64,000 nucleotides of DNA, from NCBI GenBank assembly GCA_036924855.1, contig JBAGRP010000001.1, positions 5,146,001-5,210,000 of the forward strand, given 5' to 3'. The notes beneath the pieces are model-generated. The model worked only from the letters and a program-made list of their open reading frames with translations, did no database searches and was not told the DNA's origin. The stretch comes from Nitrobacteraceae bacterium AZCC 2146. Lineage in GTDB: Bacteria > Pseudomonadota > Alphaproteobacteria > Rhizobiales > Xanthobacteraceae. Made by a program: the position numbers and the translations under genes. This document shows, piece after piece, positions 17,904 to 24,782 of the stretch (position 1 is the stretch's first letter; each line of letters starts with the position of its first letter).

Positions 17904-18954
17904 TAGAGCGTGATTGCCTCACGTTGAAGCGTATCCGGAGTTTGTCAAATAGTTCGCGCATTCTTGAGGGCTGAAGGCGCTGAGGAGCGCTCCGATCCTG
18001 CGCCACGTGGCTTCGACGGTTCGTTCTGCGGCCTTGCGCAGCAGGGTTTTGAGCTTGGCAAACATCTGCTCGATCGGGTTGAGATCTGGACTGTAAGGCG
18101 GAAGGAAGAACAGCTTCGCGCCGGCCGCGCGGATCGCGCGGCGAACGGCCTTTCCCTTGTGGCTGCCGAGATTGTCGATGACGACGATGTCACCCGGCTT
18201 CAGGGCTGGGACCAGCACCTGCTCGACATAAGCAAGGAAGCTGTCGCCGTTGATCGGCCCGTCGATCACGCAGGGAGCGTCGATGCGATCCGAGCGCAGC
18301 GCTGCCAGGAAGGTCAGGGTTTGCCAATGACCGTGCGGCACCTTCGCGACCAGCCGTTCGCCACGTGGCGCCCGGCCATGGGTGCGCGTCATGTTGGTCT
18401 TGGCCCAGGTCTCATCGATAAAGACGAGGCGGCCTGGATCGAGCTTGTTTTGCAGGCGCTTCCATCGCGCCCGCCGCCTTGCCACGTCCGGGCGATCCTG
18501 CTCGCTGGCGTGAAGGCTTTTTTTTGAAGCTGATGCCTTCATGCTCGAAGAAGTGCCACACCGCATAATAGCTGACCTTGATGCCGCGCCCGGCAAGCTC
18601 CGCCACCAGCGCCCGCAACGTCACATCAGGCTGATCGGCAAGGCGTTTCAGCAGCCAGTCCCGCTGGTCGGCCAGCGCATAGGGTCGATTGCCACCCATA
18701 GGGCGGGCCGCGGGGCTTCCGGTGGCGCGTGCGCGTTGCGACCATTTCACCGCACTCGCCACGCTCACCTTGAAGAGCGCGGCTACCTTCCGGCAGCTCT
18801 CGCCCGCCGCAACCGCCGCCACAACGCGTTCACGAAGATCCAGAGAATAAGCGCGGGCCATCGATGCTGCCTCCCGTTCAGACAGCACCTCTGAATCACA
18901 CTCCACCAGATTTGGGAATCCCAAACCGATTCAGGTCAACGCGATCATGCTCTA
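17904..18954 (-). mobile_element. IS630-family insertion sequence, 1047 bp with TA target duplication
   Basis: The element spans 17906-18952 and is bounded by TA at 17904-17905 and 18953-18954, the expected IS630 target duplication. The left end GAGCGTGATTGCCTCACGTT and the right end read on the other strand, GAGCATGATCGCGTTGACCT, form imperfect terminal inverted repeats (15 of 23 positions, including TGAA at 20-23). A subterminal perfect palindrome TTTGGG-AAT-CCCAAA lies at 18911-18925. It encodes one frameshifted transposase. Both ends are intact, so it may be a recent arrival. Confidence 0.9.
17919..18861 (-). CDS. IS630-family transposase, two frames joined by a probable -1 programmed frameshift
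   Basis: Frame A (18861-18412) starts MARAYSLDLRERVVAAVAAG behind GGGAGG and carries the N-terminal helix-turn-helix and the GNRPYAL linker region. Frame B (to 17919) carries the DDE catalytic domain: FIDETWAKTNMTRTHGRAPRG, IVIDNLGSHKGKAVR and YSPDLNPIEQMFAKLK. The frames meet at a run of eight A residues on the coding strand (18525-18518). A -1 slip there converts FKKKPSR into FKKKSLHASEQDRPD and gives a continuous product of about 313 residues. The catalytic residues are intact, so it is probably functional. Confidence 0.9.
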
Positions 18955-20553
18955 GCGTTTGTCGATCATCTCGCGGATCTTGCTGGCGAGTGCCGCCTGC
19001 GCGATCGGCTTTTGCAGCAGCGATACGCCGGCATCCAGCCGGCCCTGATGCACGATGGCGTTTCGCGAATAGCCGGTCATGAACAGTACTTTGAGGGTCG
19101 GCTGGCGCTTCAGCATTTCGTCGGCGAACTGCCGGCCGTTCATTCCGGGCATCACGATATCGGTCAGCAATAGATCGAACACTGAGGAATCGCGGGCGAA
19201 ATCCGACAACGCCACGTCGGCGTTAGGCGCCTTGCGGACGCGATAGTTCAGGCCCTCCAGCGTTTCGACCAGATACGACCGCACGTCCGGATCGTCTTCC
19301 ACCACCATGATGGTTTCATTGCCGCGGCTGCCGACAACGACGCTCTCGGTTTCAACCGTCATCTCCAGGGGCTTGGCGGTGCGCGGCAGATAGATCTTGA
19401 TCGTCGTGCCGAAACCTTCCTCGCTGTAGATCTTGACGTGACCGCCCGACTGTTTGACGAAGCCGTAGACTTGGCTGAGGCCGAGGCCGGTGCCCTGGCC
19501 GGGCTCCTTGGTAGTGAAGAACGGATCGAAGGCGCGCTCCTGCACCTCCTTCGGCATGCCCGGCCCGGTATCGCTCACCGCGATCAGCACATACTGGCCG
19601 ACCGCGGCATCATGCTGCTGCGCGTAAGGCTCATCGATGAAGGCGTTGCTGGTCTCGATGGTCAGCTTGCCCTTTCCCGCCATCGCATCGCGGGCATTCA
19701 CCACCAGATTGAGGATGCCGGCTTCCATCTGGCTCGGATCGACCTCGACCTGCCACAGCCCGGCGCCACCGACGATTTCCAGATCGACATTCTCGCTCAA
19801 GGTGCGCTGGAAGAACTCCGACATGCCCTGCAGCAGTTGATTGACGTTGATCGGCTTCGGATCGAGCGGCTGGCGGCGGGCGAAAGCCAGCAGGCGCTGC
19901 GTCAGGATCACCGCACGTTGCGCGCCGCCGGCGGCGCTGGCGATCACCCGCTTCAGGCGTGCCTGCGAGGCGTCGGTCCAGCTGTTGACGGCGTGTTCGG
20001 CGATTTCGAGATTGCCGATGATGATGGTGAGCAGGTTGTTGAAATCATGCGCGACACCGCCGGTGAGATGGCCGATCGCTTCCATCTTCTGAGTGTGACG
20101 CAGCATGTCTTCGGCCTCGCGGCGATAGCGGCCTTCCTCGATCAGCGCCATTTGCGTATTGCGCAATTGCGCCGGCGACGGAATCGCCAGCAGTTTTGGC
20201 AGCAGCGGCCACAGGATCGCGGCGGTGATCACGGAGGCGACCGCGGTGATCGCCTTGACGATGCCTTCGATGCCGTAGATCGGCACCCACAGCGTATAGA
20301 TCGACAGGATGTGAGTGAGGCCACAGGCCATGATGAAGATCGCGAAGGCCCAGAAGATCCAGCCGAACTCGACGTCGCGGCGCTTCGAGACAAAGATGCT
20401 GAGTGCTATCGGGATCGAGAAATAGGCCGCGGCGATCAGCGCGTCGGATCCGACGTGCAGCCAGATCAGCCCGGGCTCCCACAGCAGGCAAATGCCGTGC
20501 GGGGCGAACATGGATGTATCGAGGAGATGTCCGAGGAAGGCCCACATCGTCAT
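18952..20553 (-). CDS. hybrid sensor histidine kinase/response regulator with an ethylene-receptor-like membrane domain
   Basis: A 533-residue membrane sensor. Residues 30-118 form three transmembrane helices matching the ethylene-binding domain of plant ETR1 and cyanobacterial Etr1. The ETR1 residues Asp25, Tyr32, Ile35, Pro36, Ile62, Cys65 and His69 correspond to Asp37, Tyr44, Ile47, Pro48, Ile74, Cys77 and His81, all at a constant offset of 12. Then come HisKA (VAHDFNN, His169), HATPase ([23 protein letters not shown]) and a C-terminal receiver (Asp420/421, phospho-Asp465, Lys515). There is no GAF domain, unlike plant receptors. A single-domain response regulator is encoded 80 bp upstream. 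The stop codon TAG lies across the IS630 junction. Confidence 0.93.
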
Positions 20554-20633: not shown

Positions 20634-21014
20634 TCAGATGGCGCCAGCCAGCTCGTGCAGTGCGCTGATGACCTGGTTCGAACGGTAGGGCTTTGCAATG
20701 AAACGCCCGCCGGTCGGCAGGTCGCCGTCGCGAATATTGAAGTGGCCGGACGTTGCGACGATCCGGATCGGCGGCCAGCGGTTGGCGACCGCGTGCGCCA
20801 GCTTCAGGCCGTTCATCGAGCCGGGCATGTCGACGTCGGTGAAGACGATGCGGATGTCCATCCGGCTTTCCAGCAAGCGGATCGCCTCGTCGGCATTCTG
20901 TGCTTCGATCACCCGGAAGCCAGCCTCCTCGATCATCTCGGCGGCGTGCATCCGCAGTAAGGCGTCGTCTTCGACAACCAGGACGAGGGAACTTGCATGA
21001 GTTGCATGGGCCAT
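20634..21014 (-). CDS. single-domain response regulator
   Basis: A 126-residue stand-alone receiver (CheY-like) domain. It has the acid pocket VVEDD (Glu15, Asp16, Asp17), phospho-acceptor Asp60 in IVFTDVDMPGSMNG, the switch residue Ser89 in ATSG and Lys108 in AKPY. There is no output domain, so it probably works as a phospho-relay intermediate or by protein contact. It is co-oriented with the ethylene-receptor-like hybrid kinase 80 bp downstream and is the natural partner by position. A strong hairpin (21101-21140) lies in its upstream region. Confidence 0.92.
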   Translation of the reverse strand: MAHATHASSLVLVVEDDALLRMHAAEMIEEAGFRVIEAQNADEAIRLLESRMDIRIVFTDVDMPGSMNGLKLAHAVANRWPPIRIVATSGHFNIRDGDLPTGGRFIAKPYRSNQVISALHELAGAI

Positions 21015-21229: not shown

Positions 21230-21676
21230 TTAGTCAGGCCGTCGCCCGGCGTCGGCGCGGTCGCGCACCACCTTGAACACGCCATGCGCCGTGGCGACCA
21301 CGCGATCGTCCACGCTGACCTCGGTGCTCATGAAGATCAGGCTCTTGGTGGTGCGCAGCGCCTTCGGCCGCGAGATCATCAGGTCACCGATCCGCGCGGC
21401 ATCGACGAAATAGGTATCCATCTGCACGGTGGCGAGGCTTTCCGCGCCGGACACTGCGCGGGCGGTCATGCCGCAGCTCCGGTCCGCCAGCGTCATCAGC
21501 ACGCCACCCTGCACCACGCCGCGGCGGTTGCGGTGTTTGTCCTGGCCTAGAATGGCGAATTCGTAGGCTGTTCCCAGCATTCGGTGCCAGACCGGTCCGA
21601 CCAGATGGATGAAGCCGTCATCGTCCATGATGCGCCAGCCGGCAGCTTCCAGCTCGGCGTGTGCCGCGTCGGTCAT
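21230..21676 (-). CDS. PaaI-like hotdog-fold thioesterase family protein
   Basis: A 148-residue cytoplasmic hotdog-fold protein. The core GVVQGGVLMTLADRSCGMTA corresponds to the helix motif HGG-x-x-x-x-L-x-D of PaaI/YbgC-like acyl-CoA thioesterases, but the usual His before GG is Gln here. The following strands (LATVQMDTYFVDAARIGDLM) support the fold. The substrate is unknown, and loss of that His leaves the catalytic mechanism uncertain. It is 21 bp downstream of the aldo/keto reductase gene, probably in one transcript. Confidence 0.85.
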   Translation of the reverse strand: MTDAAHAELEAAGWRIMDDDGFIHLVGPVWHRMLGTAYEFAILGQDKHRNRRGVVQGGVLMTLADRSCGMTARAVSGAESLATVQMDTYFVDAARIGDLMISRPKALRTTKSLIFMSTEVSVDDRVVATAHGVFKVVRDRADAGRRPD

Positions 21677-23464: not shown

Positions 23465-23541
23465 TCCGGCAGTTGCGCAGCCGCGCCGTTTCGGCGACGA
23501 TCCCGGTAACAATAAAGACGTTTTCGGGAGGATGATCCGCC

Positions 23542-24523
23542 ATGGGTTCGTGGACGCGATTTCTGTGCGCGGCCGTGGCCGCGCTTGCCGTGCAGGGCGC
23601 TGCGGATCGCGCCTGCGCACAAGCCTATCCCGACCGTCCGGTCACGCTGGTGATCCCGTTTGCCCCGGGCGGCAGCACCTCGATTGTCGGCCGCGTCATC
23701 GCCGACAAGATGAGCGAGACGCTGGGCGAGAAAGTCATTGTCGATAACAGGCCCGGCGCGGGCGGCACCGTCGGTACCCGGGCGGTCGCCAAAAGCGCGC
23801 CTGATGGCTACACCATCGGCCTCGGCTATACCGGCACGCTGGCGATCGGCCCCACGCTGTACAGCAAGGCCGGCTACGATCCGCGCAAGGACTTTGCCCC
23901 GATCGGCCTGATCGGCAATTCGCCGAATTCGCTGGTGGTGCATCCGGCGTTTCCGGCAAAGACCGTCGGCGAGCTGATTGCCTACCGCCAGGGCCAATCC
24001 CGGCAAGGTCAATTTCGGCTCCGCGGGTGCGGGTACCGCCAGCCACATCACCGGCGAATATTTCGGCCGCGCCGCCGGCATCACGCTGGTGCACATCCCG
24101 TACAAGGGCACCGGCCCGGCGCTGGTCGATCTGATCGGCGGTCACATCCCGATGGCCTTTGCGCCGATCCCAGCCACCCACGCCAATGTTTCCGGCGGGC
24201 AGTTGCGCGCGCTCGCGGTCACCAGCCTCACCCGCACCAGCCTGCTGCCGGAGGTGCCGACCGTTGCCGAATCCGGCCTGCAGGACTTCGATGCCTCGCT
24301 GGTTTACGGGCTGATCGCACCGGCCGGCACGCCGCGGCCGATCGTCGAGCGCCTCAACAAGGAATTGCGCGCGGCGCTGGCGTCCGACGAGGTGAAGAAG
24401 CGGCTGTTGCAGGACGGCACCGAGCCGACGCCGGGCACGCCGGAAGATTATGTCGCCTTCATCGACAAGGACGAGACCAAGTGGTCTGCCATCGTCAAGG
24501 CCAGCGGCGCCAAGGAGGAGTAG
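23542..24523 (+). pseudogene. Bug/TctC-family tripartite tricarboxylate transporter receptor, single-base frameshift
   Basis: Reading from ATG 23542 gives a signal peptide, PVTLVIPFAPGGSTSIVGRV, RPGAGGTVGTRAVAKSAPDG and VGELIAY, a normal TctC N-terminal half. At 23985-23986 one extra C shifts the frame. The correct continuation, ARANPGKVNFGSAGAGTASH then IPYKGTGPALVDLIGGHIPM, is in the next frame and runs to TAG 24521-24523. Removing one C restores a receptor of about 326 residues. No TctA/TctB membrane genes are nearby. It is a young pseudogene or an assembly error. Confidence 0.88.
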
Positions 24524-24541
24524 TAGGGCAAGGAGGAGTAG
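24511..24541 (+). repeat. 13-bp direct repeat at the 3' end of the TctC pseudogene
   Basis: CAAGGAGGAGTAG occurs at 24511-24523, including the stop codon, and again at 24529-24541. This is a short tandem duplication, probably by slippage, and creates a second Shine-Dalgarno-like run without an obvious gene behind it. Confidence 0.8.
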
Positions 24542-24554
24542 GGAATGGCGATCC

Positions 24555-24782
24555 TCAGTTCGCCCGTATGGCTTTCCGCTTTGCCCTGATCGTCGGCCTG
24601 GACTTTTCTCCGTCCGGTCTGGCTGGTGTGGCGGTTTCGGGCGGCGCCCGCGACACCACATCGTAGCAATTCATCCGGGCGCGGAAATCCGGAAAGCCGT
24701 TGCAATCGGGCGGCTCGGCCGATGCCGCGGATGTTCCGGCGGCGAAGGCGGCGATCAGCATTGGAAAGACAATCTTCACCAA
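24555..24782 (-). CDS. small exported protein of unknown function
   Basis: A 75-residue ORF beginning MVKIVFPMLIAAFAAGTSAA, a good signal peptide with cleavage predicted near ASA-EPP. The mature part CNGFPDFRARMNCYDVVSRA has two cysteines 14 residues apart that could form a disulfide, followed by a basic, proline-rich tail. The gene is convergent with the TctC pseudogene. I recognise no domain. Coding is supported by the signal peptide and the spaced cysteines only. Confidence 0.55.
   Translation of the reverse strand: MVKIVFPMLIAAFAAGTSAASAEPPDCNGFPDFRARMNCYDVVSRAPPETATPARPDGEKSRPTIRAKRKAIRAN

Follow-up and report, generated by a model that had tools for sequence, protein, structure and literature searches.

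A probable ethylene receptor of the hybrid histidine kinase type in Nitrobacteraceae bacterium AZCC 2146, with homologues in Bradyrhizobium

The window is a stretch of 64,000 nucleotides from the genome of Nitrobacteraceae bacterium AZCC 2146 (contig JBAGRP010000001.1, positions 5,146,001 to 5,210,000), and all coordinates below are positions within it. The gene we studied encodes a hybrid sensor histidine kinase on the minus strand, with a gene for a lone receiver protein upstream and a mobile element downstream. The features are as follows.

18952..20553, minus strand: hybrid sensor histidine kinase of 533 aa (ethylene-binding domain by profile, HisKA/HATPase, receiver); open reading frame with an ATG start, domains from Pfam
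20161..20514, minus strand: putative ethylene-binding domain together with the N-terminal motif (residues 14-131), with three predicted membrane helices and residues D37, Y44, I47, P48, I74, C77, H81 and K100; from Pfam, alignment and model
20479..20502, minus strand: PHGICLLW motif (residues 18-25), outside the Pfam match, with a short predicted helix (19-25) directly before membrane helix 1; from alignment and model
19378..20124, minus strand: kinase core (residues 144-392), with the phospho-acceptor H169, N286, D328-G332 and G354/G356; from Pfam and motifs
18976..19311, minus strand: fused receiver domain (residues 415-526), with the phospho-acceptor Asp in LTDIVMPG; from Pfam and motifs
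20634..21014, minus strand: lone receiver protein of 126 aa with intact phospho-acceptor motifs, encoded 80 bp upstream of the kinase gene and in the same orientation; from Pfam and motifs
21230..21676, minus strand: hotdog-fold (4HBT) thioesterase-like protein of 148 aa, a conserved neighbour in the genus; from Pfam and the gathered loci
17919..18924, minus strand: IS630-family element, its transposase in two overlapping frames, between the kinase gene and a convergent ABC-transporter ATPase gene; from Pfam and NCBIfam

A sequence-only reading of this DNA had proposed a profile search against ethylene-binding-domain models, and that search gave a match by a wide margin: ETR1_N (PF25487) covers residues 29-124 of the 533-aa kinase at 132.2 bits against a cut-off of 27. 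The Pfam scan also placed HATPase_c at residues 272-392 and Response_reg at 415-526, both above their cut-offs, and HisKA at 162-228 with 24.6 bits, slightly below its cut-off of 26.9. A motif check found the phospho-acceptor His, the N and G boxes, and the receiver Asp and Lys all intact, which makes this protein a hybrid histidine kinase. In both the fused and the lone receiver the phospho-acceptor Asp is retained, as are the Thr/Ser and Lys motifs. The same reading had described a protein that lacks a GAF domain and is accompanied by a separate receiver gene, and this was correct: the Pfam scan of the whole protein found no GAF and no PAS, and the receiver gene lies at 20634-21014 (-).

The kinase and receiver part (residues 144-531) is closest to NF010076 / PRK13557 and CckA in NCBIfam, in both cases below the cut-off of the model (402 bits against 631 for NF010076), and in a sequence search of PDB the best match to the kinase part was CckA (5idj). 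Those kinases are like ours in the kinase-receiver part but have a different N-terminal sensor. For the sensor domain, the sequence search found no match among solved PDB chains. An AlphaFold2 model gives helices, the predicted membrane helices, at residues 27-57, 64-89 and 93-122 with a mean pLDDT of 93.3, so the three N-terminal helices noticed from the letters hold up in a confident model. Compared with full-length Tardiphaga and Bradyrhizobium homologues, the sensor domain had dN/dS values of 0.07-0.17 in nine comparisons, which are rough ratios because dS is high and synonymous changes are near saturation in several of them. At the protein level, it was the least diverged part in all nine. 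The sensor domain is under purifying selection.

Seven residues of the domain had been claimed to align with the ethylene-binding residues of ETR1 at a single offset. In our profile alignment they do, with Asp37, Tyr44, Ile47, Pro48, Ile74, Cys77 and His81 paired with ETR1 25, 32, 35, 36, 62, 65 and 69 at a constant offset of 12. After His81 the alignment has a gap of three residues, so that K100 pairs with ETR1 K91. For this we take the Arabidopsis ETR1 N-terminus to carry D25, Y32, I35, P36, I62, C65, H69 and K91, the expected letters. Of the 99 aligned positions, 35 have the same residue in the window domain and in ETR1, and the probability that the seven named positions would all fall among the identical ones by chance is ~5e-4. 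The 132-bit Pfam score, the residue alignment and this probability together rule out a chance resemblance to ETR1.

The receptor AzoEtr1, whose numbering we retrieved from DNA, provides an anchor for the residue assignment that is independent of the ETR1 letters. Read from its ATG, the locus in the A. brasilense Sp7 record (L134) encodes 525 aa and has Asp35, His79 and Lys98, the key residues given for AzoEtr1 (D35, H79 and K98; PMC11819568). The spacing of D37, H81 and K100 in the window kinase is the same as in AzoEtr1, and the two domains are 57% identical.

AzoEtr1 is an alphaproteobacterial receptor whose first 130 residues are reported to bind ethylene saturably in yeast (PMC11819568). 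Like the window kinase it has the seven residues, the Lys and a histidine kinase, and both genes adjoin a gene for a small receiver that has no output domain (PMC11819568). The two differ in that the scanned AzoEtr1 locus encodes a PAS but no receiver within the protein, with the receiver gene downstream, whereas our kinase has no PAS, a fused receiver and the lone receiver upstream. Arabidopsis ETR1 resembles the window kinase in the seven residues, the Lys91 equivalent, the three membrane helices, and the histidine kinase and receiver. However, ETR1 has a GAF domain between the membrane part and the kinase, which ours lacks, it has Cys4 and Cys6 where ours has PHGxC, and the kinase part of ours is nearest to PRK13557 and CckA. 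SynEtr1 (slr1212 of Synechocystis), which we compared by description, is a bacterial ethylene receptor that signals by histidine phosphorylation; it also senses light, whereas the window kinase has neither GAF nor PAS. Cyanobacterial homologues other than SynEtr1 were retrieved for comparison. Proteins with an ethylene-binding domain and varied outputs have been described in many proteobacteria and cyanobacteria (PMC7700396), and therefore this kind of receptor is already known. The window kinase is an ordinary member of a known receptor family. The novelty implied by the sequence-only reading was too high, as ethylene receptors had been described in bacteria before and one of them has been functionally proven in an alphaproteobacterium, according to PMC11819568. 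Our literature background comes from PMC11819568, PMC7700396, PMC6586836, PMC12586476, PMC13012798 and PMC4714629.

Judging from its sequence, we consider it quite probable that the window kinase is a functional bacterial ethylene sensor or receptor of the ETR1/AzoEtr1 kind. Ethylene sensing had been raised as a possibility, and it is now supported by the profile match and by the residue match to AzoEtr1, which binds ethylene (PMC11819568). The sequence features named as required for ETR1, SynEtr1 and AzoEtr1 are present in the window kinase. As described in work on these three receptors, Cu(I) held at the Cys and His binds ethylene, and the Asp-Lys pair has a supporting role in ligand binding and in output. 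SynEtr1 is described as signaling by histidine phosphorylation to a response regulator, AzoEtr1 is predicted to do likewise, and ethylene is thought to inhibit the kinase.

The mechanism that we propose is that the three membrane helices would hold Cu(I) via C77 and H81, with D37 positioning H81 and pairing with K100. Ethylene bound to the copper would change the helix bundle and so alter autophosphorylation at H169, and the phosphate would pass to the fused receiver and, in one step or through a relay, to a receiver protein, for example the lone upstream one. Because the lone receiver has no output domain, we propose that it would act via protein-protein contacts. By analogy with SynEtr1 and AzoEtr1, ethylene would most likely lower the kinase activity. 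For the window kinase we infer the binding of copper and ethylene, the direction of the effect and the partner receiver from these likenesses, and the biological role may lie in colonisation, biofilm or metabolism near plants or near ethylene-producing microbes.

In all ten of the domain-carrying relatives examined from the window's genus, Tardiphaga (L012-L021), the order is hotdog gene, lone receiver gene, kinase gene, with the receiver gene directly upstream of the kinase. Three nearly complete congeners that lack the domain (G002, G008 and G009) still have adjacent hotdog and receiver genes, with the receiver motifs intact, and in these three there is no kinase of the window type after the receiver gene. 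In G002, the ABC-transporter gene whose end neighbours the kinase in other genomes lies within ~160 bases of the receiver gene. Genomes of the genus thus either have or lack the kinase as a module at one place, beside a retained thioesterase-receiver pair. The lone receiver persists without the kinase in three congeners and is therefore not dedicated to it.

Downstream, the kinase and ATPase genes are ~20 to 170 bases apart in L015, L020 and L021, so the IS630 element is absent there, and some 3-6 kb of other DNA separates the two genes in L012 and L016-L019. In the window, the element leaves the kinase frame intact. A solute-binding protein gene at 23536-24663 (+), whose product we take to be of the TctC/Bug-like family, seems to change frame, with its C-terminal part in the frame of 23978-24520; its counterparts in L015 and L021 are unbroken frames of 336 and 328 codons.

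ETR1_N occurs as a single copy in the window's genome. We searched genomes of the genus, family, class and phylum with the same Pfam model, in samples that overlap and that each include the window's genome. The domain was found in 11 of 18 genomes of the genus, 95 of 291 of the family (93 above the cut-off), 32 of 387 of the class (31 above) and 33 of 397 of the phylum (31 above), and in none of 14 control genomes. Seven of the 18 sampled congeners lack the domain (four of those seven genomes are <90% complete), and its function is therefore dispensable. We looked for a phage or plasmid origin and dropped both: a scan of viral contigs, able to find close relatives only, gave no match, and of 72,556 plasmid records 18 carry the domain. 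One plasmid carrier is p2 of Novosphingobium sp. ES2-1 (L135, typed conjugative), where a kinase with the domain and an overlapping receiver gene lie near a type II Cas9 gene.

To describe conservation we used an alignment of 260 domains, made up of the gathered loci, 120 database proteins, the window and ETR1. All seven residues are present in 202 of its 259 bacterial rows (175 of the 231 distinct sequences). From these we took 72 bacterial representatives with <70% mutual identity, chosen by identity only; 35 keep all seven residues, nine keep six, six keep five, and the other 22 have at most three. By these residues, the domain family divides into canonical and degenerate members, and the window protein is one of the canonical ones. 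Since relatives exist that have the fold without the ligands, ethylene binding does not follow from membership of the domain family alone. Three loci (L047, L050 and L053) are stand-alone domains, with PHGxC and all seven residues, in frames of 142-153 codons that encode no kinase; L050 and L053 were also checked by Pfam scan. In three others (L095, L101 and L104) the seven residues are present, PHGxC is not aligned, and Glu or Gly stands in place of K100.

When named genomes were scanned, 230 stretches were confirmed, and the best 80 of them are from Tardiphaga (including T. robiniae), many Bradyrhizobium (including strains named B. japonicum, B. diazoefficiens and B. yuanmingense) and Rhodopseudomonas rhenobacensis. 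All 80 have K100 as well as the seven residues. Among database proteins, the seven residues are present in 238 of 240 (the best 120 of 1,562 and the best 120 of 1,278), and the other two lack the Cys.

The Bradyrhizobium proteins come in two forms. The short form is ~536-588 aa, can be aligned with the window kinase over its full length, and is mostly 69-77% identical to it (five are at 50-54%); by Pfam, short-form loci L148, L175 and L210 share the window's domain plan. The Rhodopseudomonas protein can also be aligned over its full length, at 67% identity. The long form is mostly 660-740 aa. It is like the window kinase in the domain, with 64-74% identity over the N-terminal stretch (window residues 3 to ~153) and the seven residues kept, but unlike it in the kinase part, which is 44-48% identical, and in having a PAS, as in L157, where Pfam shows one inserted (EBD-PAS-HK-REC). 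The long-form locus L172 has an interrupted reading frame. A record titled Frankia sp. RB7 (L181) has the long Bradyrhizobium form with a domain 80% identical to the query, and is possibly a mislabelled or mixed assembly. Neither the lone receiver nor the hotdog protein has a relative (E 1e-8) within the flanks, of up to 4 kb, of the Bradyrhizobium loci. The full-length homologues and the PAS-bearing sister form in many named Bradyrhizobium, as identified by sequence comparison, are a new addition here, as are the presence-or-absence pattern of the kinase in the genus, the PHGxC lead and the degenerate relatives. Among the open-literature matches listed, which leave most subscription papers outside their coverage, we found no report of a receptor of this type in rhizobia, and the Bradyrhizobium branch, common in nodule bacteria, seems not yet to have been studied experimentally.

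We next consider where the ethylene would come from. A plant host had been suggested, and this remains purely circumstantial: an ACC deaminase gene lies ~79 kb from the kinase in the same genome (588 bits, well above the cut-off), but the two genes are not associated in the genus. ACC deaminase was the only ethylene-related enzyme that we sought, and for the comparison with its gene, acdS, a strong domain was one of at least 100 bits. Across the 291 family genomes, 47 have the domain and acdS, 16 the domain only, 49 acdS only and 179 neither (p 1e-14), and a single genus accounts for 40 of the 47 double carriers. In the window's genus, five have both, five the domain only, three acdS only and none neither, so that acdS is in five of ten carriers and three of three non-carriers. 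We dropped the association as a plant signature, given that one genus dominates it and that the relation is absent in the window's genus.

It is possible, if somewhat doubtful, that the kinase is a real ethylene sensor for microbial or soil ethylene and not for a plant host, a variant that overlaps with our preferred explanation. The lack of association with ACC deaminase in the genus fits this, and the AzoEtr1 authors themselves raise a microbial source (PMC11819568). However, the best 80 of the 230 named loci are mostly Bradyrhizobium and include species that live as partners of legumes, and the domain and acdS do co-occur across the family, although mostly through the one genus.

A different possibility is that the domain binds Cu(I) and that the natural cue is copper, redox or another small ligand (CO or another alkene), with ethylene incidental. 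Part of the case for this is a second His/Cys pair, H19 and C22 of the PHGxC motif, at the outer end of helix 1. Both are present in 40 of the 44 representatives with six or seven residues (38 of the 40 also have G20 and W25) and in two of the 22 with three or fewer. Scored against C77 and H81, PHGxC is present in 40 of 47 representatives with both ligands and two of 25 without (40, 7, 2 and 23 of the 72). In five of the seven exceptions (L066, L069, L095, L101 and L104) most or all of the motif columns are unaligned, and the absence is therefore not clean. In the two reverse cases, L090 and L097, the motif is present, Cys77 is retained and His81 is lost.

On a quick tree built without the motif and ligand columns, C77/H81 changes nine times and the motif 13 times. 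There are two supported independent contrasts, and on average H19 with C22 changes in the same direction in 1.9 of the two, C22 alone in 0.7, and the other conserved columns whose output was seen in 0.0-0.6; with only two supported contrasts, a sign test cannot reach significance. Shared ancestry could explain the association, and we treat the link between PHGxC and C77/H81 as a lead from sequence. Two data sets were kept out of the motif evidence: the 27-row alignment A1, which was hand-picked and excludes members without the full motif, and the named-genome scan, where PHG[IV]CLLW was one of the two search patterns, so that the presence of PHGxCxxW in all 80 loci partly reflects the search itself. 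In plant ETR1, Cys4 and Cys6 lie near the same place and are modelled as inter-chain disulfides in PMC6586836, and a disulfide role for C22 therefore rivals a copper role.

The co-conservation of this pair would suit metal handling, and the copper ligands are near-invariant in close and AzoEtr1-like relatives among the proteins listed. Some carriers are also not from plants: examples are Novosphingobium of activated sludge and lake water, and marine or freshwater cyanobacteria. Even so, we find a copper, redox or other-ligand cue unlikely: Y44, I47, P48 and I74 are equally conserved and are not expected to be needed for copper alone, their ETR1 equivalents are described as required for ethylene binding, and AzoEtr1, with the same residues, binds ethylene (PMC11819568). 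Very improbable is a degenerate or repurposed sensor, its fold kept as a membrane anchor or dimer switch that does not bind ethylene, for which the 22 representatives with three or fewer residues and seven loci from g21 that keep 0-1 would be precedents, as the window protein has all seven residues, K100 and a low domain dN/dS. Those seven degenerate loci (L121, L122, L123, L125, L126, L128 and L129) belong to one genus, g21, of the same family, and in L121, the sole g21 locus scanned, the domain is joined to PAS and an HWE kinase.

We return to the preferred reading, an ethylene receptor of the ETR1/AzoEtr1 kind, and to what it would mean for these bacteria. Nodulation is under negative regulation by ethylene, and the usual discussion of bacteria is that they lower ethylene via ACC deaminase (PMC4714629). 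A bolder proposal, which we hold to be rather unlikely as a whole, is that the legume-nodule bacteria of Bradyrhizobium and the related genus Tardiphaga would use their own plant-type receptor to sense the hormone with which the host inhibits nodulation. In this proposal the bacterial receptors would also have a further site for handling copper, apparently not remarked on before: PHGxC, at the outer end of helix 1, would load or guard the ethylene-binding copper, a task that in plants falls to the lumenal N-terminus and RAN1 delivery. The motif offers a concrete hypothesis for how bacterial receptors may obtain copper. With a conserved receptor-like protein in many Bradyrhizobium, whether rhizobia listen to ethylene becomes directly testable, and the presence and absence of the kinase in Tardiphaga provide ready natural contrasts.
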